Positions 3 to 26,143 of a stretch of 32,181 nucleotides of DNA are shown here, piece by piece. How positions within the stretch are numbered: the stretch's first letter is position 1; each line of letters opens with the position of its first letter. The stretch covers positions 1 through 32,181 of the forward strand of contig JABAZY010000021.1 of assembly GCA_018608245.1 (NCBI GenBank). Direction: 5' to 3'. The notes under the pieces are model-generated. The model was not told the origin of the DNA. It did no database searches and saw only the letters and a list, made by a program, of their open reading frames with translations. A program made the translations under genes and the position numbers. The stretch comes from Alphaproteobacteria bacterium (lineage in GTDB: Bacteria; Pseudomonadota; Alphaproteobacteria; Micavibrionales; Micavibrionaceae).

Positions 3-416
3 ATTAGAGCATTACATGGCAATGTAACATGGGCAACTGTATCAGATGAGCGTTACAAAAAAGACATTAAGGATTCAACAGCAGGACTTAACTTTGTTAA
101 TGATTTAAAACCACGAACCTTTAATTACAGAAACAAAGGTGACTTACCTACTACTTTTAGAGCTTACGAAAAAGATTCAACTGAAACTTATAAAAATTCA
201 GAAACCAATCATGGCTTTATAGCACAAGAAGTTAAAGCGGCTATTGATGCACATCCTGATATTAAAGATGGTTTTAAAATGTGGGATAGTCGTGATGATG
301 GCTCTCAAGAAGTTTCAGAAGCGGCAGTTATTCCAATATTAGTAAAAGCAATACAAGAACTCTCTGCGAAAGTAGAGGAATTACAAACTGAAATTAAAAC
401 TTTGAAAGGAAACTAA
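3..416 (+). CDS. Tail fibre/tailspike C-terminus with S74 intramolecular chaperone (partial, 5' end missing)
   Basis: The reading frame is open from the left edge to TAA at 414-416, giving the last 137 residues of a longer protein. It holds the peptidase S74 (endosialidase-type) chaperone signature: an SDERYKKDI motif whose Ser codon is at 42-44, then a GFIAQEV motif, a conserved AVIPILVKAIQEL helix and a terminal coiled coil (VEELQTEIKTL). In characterised S74 proteins this domain trimerises the fibre and cuts itself off immediately before the Ser, helped by a nearby Lys. The Ser and the KK pair are both present here, so autocleavage is expected. The protein is probably the receptor-binding fibre of the virion. 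The receptor-binding part lies outside the window. Confidence 0.88.
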   Translation: MRALHGNVTWATVSDERYKKDIKDSTAGLNFVNDLKPRTFNYRNKGDLPTTFRAYEKDSTETYKNSETNHGFIAQEVKAAIDAHPDIKDGFKMWDSRDDGSQEVSEAAVIPILVKAIQELSAKVEELQTEIKTLKGN

Positions 417-1877: not shown

Positions 1878-4067
1878 ATGCCACTTAGTAAATTAAAATT
1901 TAGACCTGGCATAAACCGAGATAAAACTGATCTTGCTCAAATGGGTGGTTGGTATGATGGAAACATGATACGGTTTAGAGAAGGTTTTCCTGAAAAAATA
2001 GGAGGCTGGGAAGCAGCTACTTTTACTCCCTATGTAGGAGAAGCGGTCAAACTATTTGTTTATGCTATAGATACAGGTGCAGCCATTGCAGGTCTAGCGA
2101 CGACTAAAAAAATCTACATTCGTGCCGGTACAACTCTTTATGATATAACTCCTATACGAGCTACATTTACTACTTCAACTACTCCCTCCACAGACAACTG
2201 TTTTACTACTAACACCACTGCAGGCACTGAAGGCCAAGTCTTAGTAACACTTACTGGACACGGTGCTACTACAGGTGATTATGTTACTTTTAGTGGTGCA
2301 GTCGCAGTCGGTGGTATTACAGCCCCAGAACTTAATTTAAACTTCGAAGTAACCGTTATTGATAGTAACTCTTTTACTATTGAAACAGCGGGTACAGCGA
2401 CTTCAGTAGCTACAGGGGGTGGTACAGGAATTACGGCAGCGTTTGAAATTAACATTGGAGCAGACACTTCAATAGCAGGCTATGGTTGGGGTGCAGGTAC
2501 ATGGAGTCGAGGAACTTGGGGTTCAGGAGCTACACTTCCAGCTATCGTCGATGTACGATTAGTGTTTATGGACAACTTTAATAATGACTTAATCTTTAAT
2601 CTAAATAATAAAGGCGCTATTTATTACTGGACTTATAATGCAAGTTTTAATAATAGAGCGGTATTACTAAGTTCTTTAGCGGGTTCAATTGCGGTACCCG
2701 CTGAAAATGAAAAAATACTTTTTGCGCCTAGTGGTCATTTACTATCTTTAGGGGCTAGTGAATACAGTGAGACATCTACTGCAGGTATTACTATTTCAAG
2801 TATTACAAGTAGTGGAACAACAGCTACGGTGACTACAGCCTCTGCTCATGGAATAGCTACTAATGACTGGGTCTACCTTTCTGGTCAAACGACAACGGCT
2901 TACTCAGGTACCTATCAAATTACAGTAACAAGCACAACGACTTTTACGTACACATTATTAGCATCTACTACGTCCCCTGCCTCTGTTGCAGGAAGTTATC
3001 AATCTGTCTCTTATACTGCAGGTACATTTGATCCAATGATAATTAGGTTTGCTGATGTTAATGCAGACATAGGGCCTAAACCAGAAGTATGGAAACCTGA
3101 ACTTGCTAATAGCGCAGGGTTCTTATATGTTAAAGAAGGTTCTAAAATTGTTACCGGTGCTAATGTAAGACAAGAAACTCTTATATGGACAGACACATCA
3201 CTTAGTACACTACAATTTTTAGGTACAGCTGAAGTATTTGGGCTACAACTTTTATCTAACGATACTAACATTATGGGCCCTAATGCATGGGCAAGTGTTA
3301 ATAACAATATGTATTGGATGGGAACGGATAACTTCTTTGTATATGATGGTCGTGTTAATGTTCTTAAGTGTCCTTTACTACGATATATATTTGAAGATAT
3401 TAATAGAGAACAAGCTCAACTTATTCACAGCGGTACCAATAAAGAGTTTAATGAGGTCGTATGGTTCTATTGTTCTGGCGGAGCAACACCTTCGCTTACA
3501 ATTGATCGTTATGTAATCTACAACTACCGTGATGATATTTGGTATTATGGGCAACTTAACAGAACAACTTGGGTAGATGCAGGAGTTAACGAATATGCAC
3601 TAGCTACTTCTGGTGGATACTTATACTCACATGAGAAAGGTACTAATAATGGACAGCCTTTAGGTGCAGCCCCTTTGGCTATCAACTCATACATTGAGTC
3701 AGCCTTTATGGATATAGCTGATGGTGAGTTTTATATGTTGACTAAGAAAGTTATACCTGATGTAGATTTTACTGCATCACAAACAGTCAATCCTGTGACA
3801 GGAGCCACACTAACCCCTGCAGTCGATATGGCAGTTGCAGTCACTAAGTTTCCAGGAGCCGCAACACAGACTACTGATGTAGCGGGGGCAACATTAACTC
3901 GAGGTGTTACTACAACAGCAGCAACAATAGATCAGTATACGAATCAAGTATTCATCAGAGCACGAGGACGACAAATGAACTTTAAAATATCATCAGATAC
4001 TCTAGGCACACAATGGCAACTCGGTGATACAAGAGTCGATGCTAAACCAGATGGACTAAGGGGATAA
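1878..4067 (+). CDS. Tail/head-tail structural protein, P22 stabilisation-protein-like (729 aa)
   Basis: The N-terminus (FRPGINRDKTD, GGWYDGNMIRFREGFPEKIGGWE) is characteristic of a large family of phage virion proteins annotated as phage stabilisation or tail accessory protein, comparable to P22 gp10. Two beta-rich insertions, around residues 115-195 and 300-375, each read as an FCCH-type module (TVTTASAHGI, DWVYLSG, YSGTYQITV, TTFTYTL and a diverged first copy). The later part (YWMGTDNFFVYDGRVNVL, NEVVWFYCSGG, IDRYVIYNYRDDIWYYG) looks like a beta-propeller-like body. The role is inferred to be a tail-hub or tube component that closes the portal. Ribosome site AAGGAT overlaps the endolysin stop region. 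Confidence 0.8.
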   Translation: MPLSKLKFRPGINRDKTDLAQMGGWYDGNMIRFREGFPEKIGGWEAATFTPYVGEAVKLFVYAIDTGAAIAGLATTKKIYIRAGTTLYDITPIRATFTTSTTPSTDNCFTTNTTAGTEGQVLVTLTGHGATTGDYVTFSGAVAVGGITAPELNLNFEVTVIDSNSFTIETAGTATSVATGGGTGITAAFEINIGADTSIAGYGWGAGTWSRGTWGSGATLPAIVDVRLVFMDNFNNDLIFNLNNKGAIYYWTYNASFNNRAVLLSSLAGSIAVPAENEKILFAPSGHLLSLGASEYSETSTAGITISSITSSGTTATVTTASAHGIATNDWVYLSGQTTTAYSGTYQITVTSTTTFTYTLLASTTSPASVAGSYQSVSYTAGTFDPMIIRFADVNADIGPKPEVWKPELANSAGFLYVKEGSKIVTGANVRQETLIWTDTSLSTLQFLGTAEVFGLQLLSNDTNIMGPNAWASVNNNMYWMGTDNFFVYDGRVNVLKCPLLRYIFEDINREQAQLIHSGTNKEFNEVVWFYCSGGATPSLTIDRYVIYNYRDDIWYYGQLNRTTWVDAGVNEYALATSGGYLYSHEKGTNNGQPLGAAPLAINSYIESAFMDIADGEFYMLTKKVIPDVDFTASQTVNPVTGATLTPAVDMAVAVTKFPGAATQTTDVAGATLTRGVTTTAATIDQYTNQVFIRARGRQMNFKISSDTLGTQWQLGDTRVDAKPDGLRG

Positions 4068-4068
4068 C

Positions 4069-4251
4069 ATGGCACACGTCGTACAACCTAAAGCACCTAA
4101 CTTGGCTCTTCCTAAAATAGAATATAGTGAAGATCAACAGAACCAACTACAGAATCAGCTAAGGTTATACTTTGCGCAACTAGATAAAGCACACTTAGAT
4201 GAGATTAAAAACTTACACACTAACAATGTAATGCATTGGATGGGGATATAA
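4069..4251 (+). CDS. Small hypothetical protein in structural operon (60 aa)
   Basis: ATG begins one base after the preceding TAA and the gene ends in a TAATG overlap with the next start. The product has a Pro-rich head (PKAPNLALPKIEY) followed by a Gln-rich amphipathic helix (SEDQQNQLQNQLRLYFAQLDKAH). I do not recognise a named family, though short Pro-head/helix proteins at this place are common in marine podoviruses. Tight packing and direction argue it is real. Confidence 0.68.
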   Translation: MAHVVQPKAPNLALPKIEYSEDQQNQLQNQLRLYFAQLDKAHLDEIKNLHTNNVMHWMGI

Positions 4252-7532: not shown

Positions 7533-9098
7533 ATGTTATTAAAGTTAATACCTAAAAAAATTAAAGTATGGCTACTTAAGCATCTATATAAAGATATAGC
7601 TGCTGAAGGTCGTATGGGTGATACTCAACTTGCTCATATTAATGACTATGAAGCTGGCTTACTTAAATCAGTAGGGGGTACTGGAACTATAAACCCAGCG
7701 ACAGGTTTAGTTGAATATGGTGGAGGCAAGGGTGGTGGTGGTAGCTCAGCTCCAGCTTCAACAACAAATGAAACTACTTCATACTCTACTAACTTACCTG
7801 AATATGCTCAGCCATTCTTTGAAGAGCAGATGAAGCAAGGAGCAAGATTAACTTATAACACTGACTCAAGAGGTAATGTTACAGGTGTTAAAGGCGCTCC
7901 TGTATATCAAGGGCCTAGAGTTGCTGGATTTTTACCAGACCAAACAGCAGCCCAAGCAAATACAAGGAATTTAAGAGACCCTATTCAAATAGCACAAGGA
8001 ACGTATGCATTAAACAGAGGTTTAACAGGGGCTAATACGGCAATGGGTGGACTCGGTCTAGCAAGAGCTTACACTCCTGGAACAATTACAAGTGAGGATG
8101 TAACAAATGAGAATATAGAAGAAGTTTTCAGAGGTAGAGAGTTAGGAGGACCTTCAGATATATCGGCTACTCAAGTAAATGAAACTGTAACTACTGATAG
8201 ATTTACCGACCCAGGTATAGCAGCAAATTACATGAACCCTTATCAGCAACAAGTGGTTGATGTAGAATCTGCTGAAGCTAGAAGACAAGCTGACATTGCC
8301 AAAGCATCAAGAGGTTTAGGATCTATAAGCCGAGGTACTTTTGGTGGTGGTAGACAAGCTTTAATGGAGTCTGAAGCAGACAGAGCATTAGCAACTCAGT
8401 TAGGTGCTATACAAGCTAGAGGAAGTCAACAAGCTTATCAACAAGGACAACAAGCATTTACTCAAGACCAAGCTCGTGGCTTACAAATGCAACAAGCAAA
8501 CCAAGCAGCAGACTTACAAGCTCAGCAATTGAGGCAAGCAGGCCAAAAAGCAAACCAAGCAACTAGAATGCAAACAGATCTGGCAAATCAAGCCGCTGAC
8601 TTACAAGCTCAACAGTTAAGACAGCAAAGTCAAAAAGCAAACCAAGCAGCTGACCTACAGGCACAACAGTTAAATCAAGCAGCTAATTTACAAATGCAGG
8701 GGATGCAACAAGCAGGCGATCAGTTTGGCGCAGATTTAAATAAACAATTAGGTTTAGGTGGTCTACAAGCTCAAAGTACACTAGGTGGTCAACTAGGACA
8801 ACTAGGTGCGCTCGATCAACAAACAGACCTACAAAGAATTCAGGCTCTAGCAGCTTCTGGTGCAGAACAACAAGCAATGGACCAAGAGTATTTAAATGCA
8901 GCTCAACAAAGATACTTAGAGGATGCAAACGCTCAAAGGGCTATGTTAGAGTATCAATCAAATATACTACGTGGTACTGCAGGTGCGTTAGGTTCAACTC
9001 AAACACAGTATGCAGCAGCTCCAAGCATGGCATCTCAAATTGGTGGGTTAGGTCTAGCAGGGCTAGGACTTTATAATACTATGATGGGAAAGGGGTAA
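7533..9098 (+). CDS. Internal virion/ejection protein with Gln/Ala-rich coiled repeats (521 aa)
   Basis: The N-terminus is basic and amphipathic (LLKLIPKKIKVWLLKHLYK). Residues 29-59 read GDTQLAHINDYEAGLL...GTINPATGL, a signature shared with the 817-aa protein. A Gly-rich linker follows. From about residue 240 the protein becomes an almost charge-poor Gln/Ala helix with repeats of NQAADLQAQQLRQ (about 320-390). The C-terminus ends in a Gly/Leu-rich hydrophobic segment (IGGLGLAGLGLYNTMMG). Gln/Ala-rich long helices between a gp13-like gene and giant ejection genes match the position and composition of T7 gp14-type proteins, which form an outer-membrane pore during DNA entry. The functional link is by synteny and composition, not clear homology. 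Confidence 0.7.
   Translation: MLLKLIPKKIKVWLLKHLYKDIAAEGRMGDTQLAHINDYEAGLLKSVGGTGTINPATGLVEYGGGKGGGGSSAPASTTNETTSYSTNLPEYAQPFFEEQMKQGARLTYNTDSRGNVTGVKGAPVYQGPRVAGFLPDQTAAQANTRNLRDPIQIAQGTYALNRGLTGANTAMGGLGLARAYTPGTITSEDVTNENIEEVFRGRELGGPSDISATQVNETVTTDRFTDPGIAANYMNPYQQQVVDVESAEARRQADIAKASRGLGSISRGTFGGGRQALMESEADRALATQLGAIQARGSQQAYQQGQQAFTQDQARGLQMQQANQAADLQAQQLRQAGQKANQATRMQTDLANQAADLQAQQLRQQSQKANQAADLQAQQLNQAANLQMQGMQQAGDQFGADLNKQLGLGGLQAQSTLGGQLGQLGALDQQTDLQRIQALAASGAEQQAMDQEYLNAAQQRYLEDANAQRAMLEYQSNILRGTAGALGSTQTQYAAAPSMASQIGGLGLAGLGLYNTMMGKG
8503..8670 (+). repeat. Imperfect repeats encoding NQAADLQAQQLRQ
   Basis: Three in-frame copies of a segment coding N-Q-A-A-D-L-Q-A-Q-Q-L-(R/N)-Q, two of them followed by x-x-Q-K-A, occur at about 8503, 8587 and 8641. 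The spacings are 84 and 54 bases, multiples of three, so the repeats extend the helix in frame. Confidence 0.75.
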
Positions 9099-22769: not shown

Positions 22770-23168
22770 TTATTTACTTGGTTTGCGAACTACGATTTGA
22801 AACTCCTTCATACTACTAATTCCTGGAGGAAGTCCCTCATCTGTTCGGTTGCTTAAAAACTCTTTGAAATTAGTCTGATGTAAGCGTTGTTGTAATAATT
22901 CGATTGCGTCGTTTTGCATGACGTACTGCTTAAAATTATCCCAATCACCACATACAAAATTCTCTTTCGTAGTTTTTATGATTGTTCCACTGTTAGTTTT
23001 TATACTATCAGCTTCTATCTCGTTACATGAGCTCAGCATTACTTGGTCCAACTGTGCAAGTTCCGCTTTTAATTCTGAATCTTTAGCGTTGAACTCTCTT
23101 GCATTAGCGTCACGTTTATTACGAATTGCAATATACGCTTTGACTAATTCTTCTAATTTAACTGCCAT
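22770..23168 (-). CDS. Conserved phage replication-region protein of unknown function (132 aa)
   Basis: Layout: N-terminal coiled helix (LEELVKAYIAIRNKRDANAREFNAKDSELKAELAQ), a small beta unit (ADSIKTNSGTIIKTTKENFVCGDWDNFKQYV), then NDAIELLQQR and a DEGLPPGISSMKEFQIVVRK ending. I know this arrangement (S(I/V)KT..GT..., DW..F..YV, LPPGv) from many phages, where it is unnamed. GGGGAGA precedes the ATG, and the start overlaps the upstream gene by 11 bases. Its place between the alpha-CTD-like protein and the ssDNA-binding protein suggests a DNA-metabolism role. Confidence 0.75.
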   Translation of the reverse strand: MAVKLEELVKAYIAIRNKRDANAREFNAKDSELKAELAQLDQVMLSSCNEIEADSIKTNSGTIIKTTKENFVCGDWDNFKQYVMQNDAIELLQQRLHQTNFKEFLSNRTDEGLPPGISSMKEFQIVVRKPSK

Positions 23169-23775
23169 TTTCTATCTCCCCTCTATATGAATATAATTTT
23201 GTATTTAATTTAAGTCCCCAATCATCCAATGTATACTTAATGTCATTTAAAGTCTTTCTACCTAGGTTAGGTGCCCTCAATAACTCCCTTTCGCTCTTTT
23301 GAATTAAGCTACCAATAGTATAAATCTGTTCCGCTATAAGACAATTCGACGCTCTAACACCTATGTTTAAAAAATAAATGTCATAAGTTGCAAGTTTATG
23401 TCCGAACGGAGTTGTATCATTATTACCATCTTGTAACTCTTTTTTTAACCCCTTTATTTCTTTGCGTTTTTGTTTCCAAATTCTTTGAGCTCGCTGTCGT
23501 CGCTCAACTGCTTGTATGATGCAATGAACTCTTGAGCCAGACAAATTATATTTAGCTCCTAGTTTTTTATGTGTAATTTCTCCCCTATCATATTCTTCTT
23601 TAATCTGCTCATCTCTTTTTGCCACCAATAATTTTTTCTTTTCGCGCGCATCAAAAGTTGCTTTTCTTTTTACCCACTGTGCTTGTCTTATTTTCTCAGT
23701 TATTGCTTTTGTTTCTTCATAATATTTGTTCTTTAAGTCTGTTCTTTCCCTTTCTAATTTCTCTATTTTATTCAT
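23158..23775 (-). CDS. Fusion of sigma-region-4-like HTH and RNA polymerase alpha C-terminal domain (205 aa)
   Basis: Residues 1-60 are a Lys/Glu-rich coiled coil. Residues 66-95 (EITHKKLGAKYNLSGSRVHCIIQAVERR) read as a helix-turn-helix like sigma70 region 4.2. Residues 134-192 match the bacterial RNA polymerase alpha-CTD: GVRASNCLIAEQIYTIGSL, then ERELLRAPNLGRKTLNDIK and WGLKL. Aligned to E. coli alpha, DNA-contact residues R265, N268, C269, G296 and K298 correspond to R141, N144, C145, G172 and K174; S299 and E302 become T175 and D178. The assembly domain (alpha-NTD) is absent, so this is not a full subunit. It is ATGA-coupled to the SNF2 helicase and probably redirects or competes at host promoters. 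Confidence 0.85.
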   Translation of the reverse strand: MNKIEKLERERTDLKNKYYEETKAITEKIRQAQWVKRKATFDAREKKKLLVAKRDEQIKEEYDRGEITHKKLGAKYNLSGSRVHCIIQAVERRQRAQRIWKQKRKEIKGLKKELQDGNNDTTPFGHKLATYDIYFLNIGVRASNCLIAEQIYTIGSLIQKSERELLRAPNLGRKTLNDIKYTLDDWGLKLNTKLYSYRGEIENGS

Positions 23776-25343
23776 GAATCTAACTCCTCTCTGTATAAGT
23801 CTACTAATTTTGTGTGGGAATCCACCTTACCCTGAAGCATTCCATACATCCTTTTCTCTACATCAGATCCCTGTAAGTGCACTACAGTCATTTTATTCTT
23901 TTGTCCTACTCTATCAATTCGAGCTATACATTGAAGATATACTTCAACAGACATAACAGGAGACCAAAACACAACTACATTAGCTTTAGTTAAAGTTACT
24001 CCGTGTGATGCAGACTGAGGTTGAACCACTAACACTCTAGGATTATCGGAAGTTTGAAATCTATTAATTATAGAGGCACGTTCATTTGCCGTAACGTCTC
24101 CATGTATTAATTCAGTTGTTATATTTTTATCTGTTAAATAGTTTTGTACTAATTGTATTGTATGACGATAAGGAACAAATACTAATATCTTATGTTCGGT
24201 TTCTTCTATAGCTTCTAGTAGAGCATTTAATCTTGGTTTAATATCAAACTCTATAACTTTTCTGTCATCAGTATAAACTGCTCCACCTGATATTTGTAAT
24301 AGCTTATTTAATCCTGCCGCAGCATTGACTGCGGTTACAGACTCTCCTCCTGTTTCAATGAGCATTTCTGTTTTAAGTGCTCTATAGTAAGAAAGTGCTT
24401 GAGGTGTTAAAGGTATTTCTCTAGTTTGATACATTACATCAGGTAAATCTAAGCAATCATTTTTAGCATATCTAATTGCAGGTTGTAACACATCAAAAAC
24501 TTTATGTTTAGAATCAGGTCTAGGTATCCATTTAAATCTGGATACTTGGTGCATTACTTTATCTCGCCATGCATTAGTAAATTTGGGAACTCTTTCAGGA
24601 GATACTAACTTAGCAATACCATATGCATCCATAGGTGATTGAGATGCAGGTGTTCCTGTCAACATCCATAACCTAGTGTTGTCTGTAAGTATTTTATTTA
24701 TTATTTTCCATCTAGCTGTACTAGTAGATTTATACGCGTTAGCTTCATCTATGACTATCAAATCAAATTTAGCGTCTTTGATTTCTTTTTTTATTATCCC
24801 TACACCATCATAGTTTATAATAGTAAAATCAAAGTCTCCCTCAATAATTGTTTTTCTTTTAGTAGCAGAACCATGACATACGGCTGATGTACGATGCATG
24901 CATGTGTTAAATATATCATTTTGCCATGCTGAATGCATAATTGATAAAGGGCATATTACTAAAACTTTTTTAATTAAGCCGAGATTCATTAAATAATCAG
25001 CTGACCACAATACAGAGGAAGTTTTTCCTGTGCCTGCTTCATTAAAACAAAACGCTTTAGGATTAATACTTAAAAACTCAGAAGTTATTCTTTGGTGTTT
25101 GAAAGGTTTATAAAGACCAGGCCAATCATAATTTTTAGTAATAGGAGAGGGTAAAAAGTTTTTAAATTTAACACATTTATTTAGGGTAGACATTTCTTCA
25201 ATACCCCAATTAACTATTACATCTACTAATTCATTATCTTTATATTCTTTTATAATTTCAGACTTATCTATATGAGATGTTATTACTAGTCCTACTTGTT
25301 TAGAGACAGTAATATGCACTGCCTTATCGTCAATTAACTTCAT
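23772..25343 (-). CDS. SNF2-family DEAD/H-box helicase/translocase (523 aa)
   Basis: All core motifs are present: Q-like region FKHQRITSEFL, Walker A NEAGTGKT with K107, LVICPLSIMHSAW (Ia), IVIDEANAYKS (II, D199-E200), MLTGTPASQSP (III), LVFVPYRHT, ELIHGDV, then SHGVTLTKANVVVFWSP (V) and QCIARIDRVGQ (VI). This is the compact SNF2 type typical of phage replication modules, with a short extra N-terminal domain of about 75 residues. It should translocate on double-stranded DNA to clear or remodel bound proteins or branched structures. AGAGGAAC precedes the ATG and a sigma70-like promoter lies just upstream. Confidence 0.92.
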   Translation of the reverse strand: MKLIDDKAVHITVSKQVGLVITSHIDKSEIIKEYKDNELVDVIVNWGIEEMSTLNKCVKFKNFLPSPITKNYDWPGLYKPFKHQRITSEFLSINPKAFCFNEAGTGKTSSVLWSADYLMNLGLIKKVLVICPLSIMHSAWQNDIFNTCMHRTSAVCHGSATKRKTIIEGDFDFTIINYDGVGIIKKEIKDAKFDLIVIDEANAYKSTSTARWKIINKILTDNTRLWMLTGTPASQSPMDAYGIAKLVSPERVPKFTNAWRDKVMHQVSRFKWIPRPDSKHKVFDVLQPAIRYAKNDCLDLPDVMYQTREIPLTPQALSYYRALKTEMLIETGGESVTAVNAAAGLNKLLQISGGAVYTDDRKVIEFDIKPRLNALLEAIEETEHKILVFVPYRHTIQLVQNYLTDKNITTELIHGDVTANERASIINRFQTSDNPRVLVVQPQSASHGVTLTKANVVVFWSPVMSVEVYLQCIARIDRVGQKNKMTVVHLQGSDVEKRMYGMLQGKVDSHTKLVDLYREELDS

Positions 25344-25399: not shown

Positions 25400-25725
25400 G
25401 TTTTTTTAGTTTTTTTCTTTCTTTCTCTTGTACTTGTTTCAGATACTAGCTTTTTAGAGGAGTTTCTTTTGAATGAACGGTTTTTAGATTTAGACTGAAT
25501 AGTCACACCGTGTTTGTTTTTACCACCTTTAGATAAAGCTTTTCTATGCGACACATCCTTACCTTCCCGCTTGTCCGCTTTACCGTTACCATTTGCATCT
25601 TTACCTGTTTTATCTATCTTACGACGAGCGCGTTGTCTTTCCATACGACGTTCGTGTTCAGACTTACGAGCTTTTTGTTGTTGATATTCTTTTTTGTATG
25701 GTCTTTTTTTCTTTGTATATGCCAT
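25396..25725 (-). CDS. Small basic HNH-like DNA-binding phage protein (109 aa)
   Basis: Very Lys/Arg-rich throughout. The core GKDVSHRKALSKGGKNKHGVTIQSKSKNRSFKR matches small phage proteins with a (D/E)V(D/S)H...N...(V/I)..KS.NRSF pattern, related to HNH folds but often lacking the full catalytic set. Here the first position is SH and the middle Asn is not clear, so nuclease activity is doubtful. AAGGG lies about 10 bases ahead of the ATG, inside the upstream HNH gene, with which it overlaps by 62 bases in another frame. Confidence 0.72.
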   Translation of the reverse strand: MAYTKKKRPYKKEYQQQKARKSEHERRMERQRARRKIDKTGKDANGNGKADKREGKDVSHRKALSKGGKNKHGVTIQSKSKNRSFKRNSSKKLVSETSTRERKKKTKKT

Positions 25726-26143
25726 TTTTAGCTACCCTTTTACACCACTGTATAAATTCTTTTATTGTTAAATCATGTCTGAAAGAGTTTACTGCTCTGC
25801 AAACTAACTGAACGTTCTCTATATTATACTCCCCTCCTGCAATTATTCTATCAATACTTGCGTTGGTCTTAACATATTTACCTACAACTTTTTCACAAGT
25901 AAGTTTTGTTCCTGATAACGCACACTTACCTTGTTGTTTATTAAGTAGCTCTACTAAATCTTGAGCAGTAACGTTTGTTCTTTTTTTAGATAATAAGTGT
26001 TTAAAATATAATATCCAATTACCTGATTCTCTTTTATATCTTGTATCTCTTTTGTGAGTTACCCCACATTGAGCTGAACAACATAAGTATTTAGGGTGGT
26101 GAGTTTTAAACTCTTTACCACAAACTACACAGTTTACTTCCAT
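25664..26143 (-). CDS. HNH endonuclease with N-terminal zinc ribbon (159 aa)
   Basis: Residues 1-30 hold C5-x2-C8 and C21/C22 with C26 (CVVCGKEF...CCSAQCG), a zinc ribbon. The C-terminal nuclease part has GKCALSGTKL, then ASIDRI with D98, YNIENVQLVC with N107 and N110, and AVNSFRHDL with N119, a known HNH variant with DR in place of the first HN pair. Likely a DNA endonuclease, free-standing or homing-like. The start overlaps the end of the Cas4-like nuclease gene by 10 bases and the end runs 62 bases into the next gene. Confidence 0.82.
   Translation of the reverse strand: MEVNCVVCGKEFKTHHPKYLCCSAQCGVTHKRDTRYKRESGNWILYFKHLLSKKRTNVTAQDLVELLNKQQGKCALSGTKLTCEKVVGKYVKTNASIDRIIAGGEYNIENVQLVCRAVNSFRHDLTIKEFIQWCKRVAKNGIYKEKKTIQKRISTTKSS

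Follow-up and report, generated by a model that had tools for sequence, protein, structure and literature searches.

The fusion gene and its neighbourhood

We analyzed the gene for a fusion protein within a stretch of DNA of 32,181 nt, referred to here as the window. An earlier note on this DNA had placed an open reading frame at 23158-23775, and we found a 205-aa frame at exactly these coordinates on the minus strand. Its protein combines a helix-turn-helix (HTH) with the C-terminal domain of the RNA polymerase alpha subunit (alpha-CTD). The features of the locus are as follows.

23158..23775, minus strand: fusion gene, encoding the 205-aa HTH/alpha-CTD protein (coordinates include the stop codon)
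23635..23775, minus strand: residues 1-47, long charged N-terminal helix (AlphaFold helix 3-63, pLDDT about 90; no family matches above cut-off)
23482..23634, minus strand: residues 48-98, putative Mor/C-like HTH (PF08765 and phrog_532 matches, HTH-alone model)
23401..23481, minus strand: residues 99-125, last part of helix 80-116 and linker (AlphaFold; residues 117-126 with pLDDT < 50)
23200..23400, minus strand: residues 126-192, RNA polymerase alpha-CTD (PF03118, PDB phmmer to RpoA, 8y5t_A2 superposition)
23161..23199, minus strand: residues 193-205, variable C-terminal tail, not part of the conserved cassette (sequence comparison with L001-L003)
23772..25343, minus strand: SNF2-type helicase, upstream neighbour, whose stop overlaps the fusion start (ATGA)
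22770..23168, minus strand: gp157-like/phrog_13900 protein, downstream neighbour, whose start overlaps the fusion end by 11 nt
23779..23796, minus strand: 5′ copy of a flanking repeat, with AGAGAGGAG, the likely ribosome-binding site (imperfect, 15/18)
23171..23188, minus strand: 3′ copy of the flanking repeat, upstream of the gp157-like start codon (imperfect, 15/18)

Three IMG/VR contigs (L001-L003) carry this gene with an intact frame at 88-89% identity, and the fusion is therefore not a frameshift artefact; L001 and L002 are identical across the 19,985 nt compared. Six exact peptide patterns, which recover near relatives only, found the same protein and homologues of residues 1-118 in IMG/VR in these three contigs alone, and residues 1-118 had no significant match in named phages (INPHARED; one match, E 3). 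Matches were obtained in 40 plasmid records, and the 15 matches listed span only residues 122-200, at the alpha-CTD end. The same end is all that is covered by the non-window matches listed from 289 genomes of the bin's class, five of which, the window's included, had two matches. Two short patterns run against genome contigs gave two matches, both to an alpha-CTD alone, with L175 being an ordinary RpoA.

The fusion gene lies in a block encoding a DNA polymerase A, an exonuclease, an HNH protein, the SNF2 helicase, the fusion, the gp157-like protein, a gp2.5-type SSB and a DUF927 primase/helicase. Together these genes make up a phage replication module; those for holin, endolysin and virion proteins are on the opposite strand. 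The contig is phage-like in the scanned ORFs, some of which had no match, and may be misbinned; the bin's RpoA, judged by its sequence, looks alphaproteobacterial. A search of the bin's genome (window included) and of the L001-L003 records found no single-subunit RNA polymerase, so that host polymerase is probably used, although this is weak evidence because the contig records may be incomplete. Related helicase genes occur in Pseudomonas phage Rollin, Rhizobium phage RHph_TM3_14A, Xanthomonas phage Xp15 and Acinetobacter phages HHU4 and Effie, and the alpha-CTD profile had no match in the stretches examined of Rollin, RHph_TM3_14A, Xp15 and HHU4 (L006-L009). Elsewhere in the block, an HNH/endonuclease-VII-like ORF at 25667-26143 of the window has weak phrog matches to "decoy of host sigma70" and "Srd anti-sigma factor" (E about 0.001-0.003), which probably arise through the HNH fold.

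The C-terminal module is an RNA polymerase alpha-CTD

Residues 126-192 form a genuine alpha-CTD of RNA polymerase, in a phage protein that stands on its own, without alpha-NTD. Residues 130-184 match the Pfam profile RNA_pol_A_CTD (PF03118) at 55.8 bits (cut-off 23.8, E 3.9e-15), and the PDB phmmer matches listed were all RpoA subunits, the best at E 4.9e-13. In the AlphaFold2 model, residues 126-192 superpose on residues 250-316 of E. coli alpha (8y5t_A2) with Z 14.2 and an rmsd of 1.0 Å over 67 aligned residues (43% identity). Profile and structure thus place the domain with alpha-CTD and exclude membership of a generic helix-hairpin-helix family, the outcome that the earlier note had named as one that would refute it. 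No RNA_pol_L or NTD match was obtained in the Pfam scan, bearing out the earlier statement that alpha-NTD is missing, and NCBIfam rpoA models match at the C-terminal end only (best 71.6 bits, cut-off 302).

The superposition of 126..192 on 250..316 means that residue n of the model corresponds to residue n+124 of E. coli alpha. In this numbering R141, N144, C145, N170, G172 and K174 correspond to R265, N268, C269, N294, G296 and K298, all of which are kept. We take R265, N268, C269, G296 and K298 to be the alpha-CTD positions that contact DNA, and every contact residue named beforehand was correctly identified. Two further changes are mild (T175 for S299, D178 for E302). D259 and E261, presumably the positions that contact sigma, are replaced by F135 and N137. 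In the 285-287 surface, T285 is conservatively replaced by S161 and E286 is kept as E162, while V287 has become R163; G315N and R317K are further changes, and we assume that positions 287, 315 and 317 lie within the activator patch.

Comparison with RpoA sequences did not point to the bin's own lineage as the source of the domain. The identity of the window alpha-CTD to RpoA is 46% for the bin's own over 59 residues, 49-53% for the ten others of the class that were scored and 59% for one from Burkholderiales; the best-scoring match of the domain is the alpha-CTD of phage L093 (57% across 61 residues). The resemblance of GRKTLNDIK to GRKSLNEIK had been taken as a weak hint that the domain was captured from an alphaproteobacterial host. 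That Burkholderiales RpoA contains GRKSLNEIK too, as do 4 of the 56 phage alpha-CTD proteins, and neither the spread of this motif nor the RpoA identities support such a capture.

By sequence the HTH probably lies closer to Mor/C activators than to sigma region 4

The AlphaFold2 model of the whole protein, built with 38 window and viral sequences, had a mean pLDDT of 83, with block values of 81-94 across residues 1-110. Its pTM was 0.41, and the model therefore does not define the orientation of the domains. Long charged helices are predicted at 3-63 and 80-116, and the HTH is laid out as the end of helix 3-63, then 69-75, then 80 onward. Modelled alone, it folds as three helices (mean pLDDT 88).

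Pfam ranked Mor (PF08765) first for this region, with E 0.0016 and 18.8 bits on the whole window protein (P0001) and E 2.3e-4 and 21.6 bits on the HTH alone, each score falling short of the gathering cut-off of 24.9; the match spans profile positions 55-103 of 107, that is, the HTH end only. Among PHROGs, the family phrog_532, annotated as "late transcriptional activator", matched at E 2.9e-4 with the whole protein and at 2e-5 with the HTH alone. Sigma70_r4 (PF04545) gave no match at E<=10 on P0001 or on its HTH alone; on the L003 protein (P0003), the only other family member scanned with Pfam, it scored E 0.025 and 14.5 bits against a cut-off of 24.1. Fold comparison of the HTH returned HetR (Z 8.1), sigmaA region 4 (Z 7.3) and Mu C (Z 6.5), with LuxR-type domains also close. 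The superposition on sigmaA region 4 (1ku7_D) aligned 61 residues at rmsd 2.8 and scored level with those on HetR and other HTHs, and that on Mu C (9l0x_I; rmsd 3.1, 58 aligned, 19% identity) lay amid similar scores for other HTHs. Foldseek with the HTH gave no match at E <= 0.001.

The earlier note had described this region as a sigma-region-4-like HTH. The HTH itself is predicted in the model, but its identification with sigma 4.2 was not supported, as Mor ranked first and Sigma70_r4 stayed below its cut-off; searching the PDB with a profile built from the aligned HTHs returned chance matches only. While the folds do not decide, the below-threshold profile matches suggest that the HTH at 48-98 is nearer to the Mor/C phage activators than to sigma region 4.

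The fusion gene has the appearance of a mobile cassette

We compared the window with L002, in which the gene order is the same. The fusion gene is 95, 94 and 97% identical at codon positions 1, 2 and 3, as against 36-51% identity at codon position 3 in eight syntenic neighbours (exonuclease, HNH, small basic gene, SNF2, gp157-like, SSB, second HTH and primase). The near-identity begins at the ATG and ends at about codon 193. The helicase gene of the window has 68% DNA identity to that of L002, and eleven other loci score higher against L002. A near-identical gene between phages whose neighbouring genes have diverged this far looks like a recent mobile cassette, and the gene is best read, from these sequence comparisons, as a single gene that was recently transferred between distantly related phages and inserted at a variable site.

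Variation at this site was apparent from the best 80 loci of a helicase search (L010-L089). None of the 80 encodes the fusion, from which we conclude that it is dispensable; the sole match in the set was to the alpha-CTD of a different, 124-aa protein in L081. The gp157-like gene is also present in 77 of the 80, and in 64 of these 77 the helicase and gp157-like frames lie within 100 nt of each other, leaving an empty site. The gap is larger in the other 13, and all ten of these that were inspected contain other small ORFs. At the same post-helicase site L012 carries a different insert (7548-7793), an ORF that by eye resembles the RDYFAA-type domain described below.

An exact repeat of 21-23 bp that contains a likely ribosome-binding site lies on either side of the cassette in L001-L003. 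As a result, the C-terminus of the fusion repeats the helicase ending REEIGL, and the gp157-like gene keeps its ribosome-binding site. The window repeat lies in the same place and matches at 15/18 (score 21, against a 95% shuffle value of 22). Duplication of the ribosome-binding site as a general mechanism at this hotspot was not supported in eleven other insert loci besides L024 (which L025 and L026 repeat; L088 was left out): L073 was weakly over its 95% shuffle value (22 against 21) and L012 equalled it, and in neither does the repeat adjoin the gp157-like start.

The protein has changed rapidly. Between the window and L002 there are 21 nonsynonymous and 3 synonymous changes (dN/dS 1.76), and dN/dS is 1.15 between the window and L003 and 0.75 between L002 and L003. 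When L002 and L003 were compared, the fusion had 6 nonsynonymous and 2 synonymous changes against 1 and 15 in six colinear neighbours (Fisher p 0.0013), the sole significant contrast among these comparisons; the exonuclease gene, where the colinearity of L002 and L003 breaks down, was excluded. The fusion protein changes faster than its neighbours, by selection or weak constraint. Positive selection was considered, and the excess of nonsynonymous changes over neutrality was not significant (21/24 changes, p 0.27). Among the three distinct proteins, amino-acid changes fell at 7 of 13 residues in 138-150 and at 0 of 43 in 151-193, these regions having been picked post hoc. An identical run of 131 nt (p 0.04) means that recombination could explain this clustering.

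One might regard such a gene as a selfish or decaying cassette that has little effect on the phage and spreads by recombination between the ribosome-binding-site repeats. The restriction of near-identity to the ORF between diverged phages, the exact repeat in L001-L003 and the three dN/dS values would all fit. We nevertheless consider this highly improbable, given that the frame is open in all four contigs, that residues 151-193 are unchanged in the three distinct proteins and that the DNA-contact residues are intact.

Free-standing alpha-CTDs recur in viral contigs

A search with an alpha-CTD alignment identified free-standing alpha-CTDs in 73 contigs assigned as viral by IMG/VR, encoding 56 distinct proteins of 55-265 aa; the 73 loci include L001-L003 (as L090-L092). 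None of the 56 is a full RpoA, three of them being cut by contig ends. The parts outside the alpha-CTD fell into 26 blastp groups at E 1e-3, or about two dozen architectures, once L100 is placed with L096 by eye and the fragment L144 is discounted. Taking the 56 together with the window protein, of which two are its close relatives, R265 is kept in 57/57, E302 in 52/57, K298 in 49/57, C269 in 46/57 and N268 in 27/57, N294 and G296 are kept in all 57 and position 287 is variable; part of this conservation reflects hit selection, because one of the two search patterns included VR..CL, which covers R265 and C269, and the other PN.G, which covers N294 and G296. When nine of the viral proteins were compared with PHROGs, none matched over the body of the alpha-CTD at E < 0.01. 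P0003 matched phrog_9278 (E 9e-4, residues 24-147), touching the alpha-CTD edge only, and L107 matched phrog_1660 at E 0.011.

Several of these proteins deserve mention in their own right. L107 (IMGVR_UViG_2791354948_000007, 3503-4192) encodes a second likely fusion of an HTH and an alpha-CTD in one viral chain, of 230 aa, as in the window. Its HTH, unlike that of the window, leans weakly to sigma region 4 (phrog_351 E 0.0062, PDB sigmaA E 0.05; no Sigma70_r4 match in Pfam at E <= 10), which brings it nearer to the earlier sigma idea than the window protein is, and it has no blastp relation beyond the alpha-CTD to L090 or L091, the window's close relatives. The viral protein of L137 (3758-4216; 153 aa) joins an alpha-CTD to what may be a remnant of the RpoA NTD (RNA_pol_L E 2.8e-4; 21 bits, below the cut-off of 24), and by its sequence could possibly be an intermediate of capture from host rpoA. 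L103 (G292) is a viral contig encoding a single-subunit RNA polymerase as well as an alpha-CTD protein of 172 aa whose sequence is the same as that of L093; its name shares a metagenome number with L001, and its alpha-CTD scores best against that of the window.

Twenty distinct viral alpha-CTD proteins, and a few more by eye, are grouped by a small helical domain resembling RDYFAAxAM...AYxxADAMxxAR (L096-L101, L104, L105, L108-L113, L116-L118, L121-L125, L127-L132, L139, L151 and L156). In L109 and L125 the alpha-CTD lies beside or inside a match to phrog_2201 (E 7.6e-16 and 5e-16), a family that L096 does not match. The repeated pairing with alpha-CTD hints that this RDYFAA-type domain may also act on transcription.

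Two other roles of the window protein were weighed. Recurrence of free alpha-CTDs on unrelated partners in viral contigs would suit a decoy that titrates host activators (CRP- or Spx-like) and so shuts off activator-dependent host genes, as would the retention of part of the 285-287 surface (S161, E162). We judge a decoy very unlikely, since V287R, G315N and R317K alter the presumed activator patch and a soluble decoy would need no HTH. The alpha-CTD could instead serve as a generic minor-groove module, anchoring a replication, recombination or packaging accessory to DNA in a role outside transcription. The position of the gene inside a helicase, gp157-like, gp2.5-type SSB and primase block would agree with this, and so would the better conservation of the DNA-contact residues than of position 287. 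Such an anchor nevertheless appears quite unlikely, because profile and structure identify the domain as alpha-CTD rather than as an HHH domain in general and the best-named matches of the HTH are transcription activators.

Proposed function

Our preferred reading, to which we give a probability of roughly 0.45, is that the fusion regulates transcription by binding DNA through two modules, taking the place of host alpha-CTD upstream of promoters or competing with it there. We infer its DNA binding, its target promoters, the sign of its effect and its early expression. It would be a phage DNA-binding transcription regulator whose gene, part of the replication module, travels as a mobile cassette. 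Its HTH, of Mor/C-like type, would recognize a particular site in the major groove, and the captured alpha-CTD would grip the adjoining A/T-rich minor groove in the way that host alpha-CTD binds UP elements. The DNA so bound would not be linked to RNA polymerase, because alpha-NTD is absent and the sigma-contact residues are lost. By occupying the upstream part of promoters the fusion would displace or replace host alpha-CTD, and transcription by host polymerase could be lowered or redirected at host or phage promoters. With the DNA contacts intact, the sigma-contact positions changed and no NTD, a composite major/minor-groove binder is the simplest reading.

The regulator reading is favoured by the retention of DNA-contact residues here and across phage alpha-CTDs while position 287 varies, by the HTH being nearest to phrog_532 and Mor, and by the overlap of the gene with both of its neighbours in the replication block. 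Modules of these two kinds are known to work side by side in phage Mu, where alpha-CTD occupies an A/T-rich site immediately upstream of the one bound by Mor, and does so more strongly in the presence of Mor (PMC4390567). Against it, the HTH match is below threshold, N268 is kept in 27/57 only, the fusion is dispensable, and the fast protein change (21 nonsynonymous against 3 synonymous relative to L002) also fits weak constraint. A DNA-bound alpha-CTD might also still contact host activators.

The same Mor-alphaCTD partnership is compatible with a recruiting activator, in which a phage promoter would be tagged by the HTH while the alpha-CTD, as an additional copy of the host domain, would draw in host RNA polymerase via sigma region 4, host alpha or activators; the Mor/C-like HTH, the retained E286 and the conservative replacement of T285 by S on the activator surface point in that direction. 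The replacement of D259 and E261 by F135 and N137 argues against recruitment through sigma region 4, V287 has become R163, and without alpha-NTD the protein has no covalent link to polymerase. We regard recruitment as unlikely.

Relation to known systems and significance

The window domain shares its fold and R265, N268, C269, G296 and K298 with the alpha-CTD of RNA polymerase (PF03118; E. coli, Caulobacter, Bacillus). It differs from the polymerase subunit in standing behind an HTH, without alpha-NTD, and in the changes D259F, E261N, V287R, S299T and E302D. Among named phages, the "RNA polymerase subunit alpha" of Bacillus phage vB_BmeM-Goe8 (210 aa) has a free-standing alpha-CTD in its C-terminal half and no RpoA NTD; the same arrangement was found by Pfam here in gp26 of Microbacterium phage Mazun, a "DNA binding protein" of 141 aa. 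Unlike the window protein, neither has an HTH match at E <= 1. BFVD entries named "RNA polymerase, alpha subunit, C-terminal" from uncultured Caudovirales phages are also annotated as alpha-CTD, a comparison that was made by names and scores only. As public databases already name such proteins, phage alpha-CTDs are a kind known by annotation. The Mor/C activators of phage Mu (PF08765, phrog_532) share the HTH region with the window protein, through a match below the gathering cut-off and at the HTH end only; alpha-CTD, fused in the window protein, is recruited in Mu, where it is a functional partner of the activator.

We found no functional study of a phage-encoded alpha-CTD protein in the open-licence literature, and "CTD" was not among the matches listed (12 of 14) from a term search of a jumbo-phage overview (PMC7824862). 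The fusion of an HTH with an alpha-CTD is apparently a new architecture; phage alpha-CTD proteins are already annotated and seem not to have been studied functionally. A wider view, which we consider possible but doubtful, is that phages have repeatedly made alpha-CTD a portable promoter-upstream module, joined to major-groove readers and other partners, spread as cassettes and occupying UP elements free of polymerase. The partner would be a Mor-like HTH here and perhaps a sigma-4-like HTH in L107.

Phages are known to act on host alpha, the phage protein Rac reportedly leading to its cleavage. They also work with host alpha-CTD through activators like Mor (PMC4390567). A phage-borne alpha-CTD joined to an HTH would be a direct way to compete for the UP-element position. 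Our survey suggests that the window protein is no one-off, as it brought together 73 viral contigs and about two dozen architectures in an apparently unstudied set. If the portable-module view is true, these proteins would represent a functionally undescribed class of phage transcription takeover factors.
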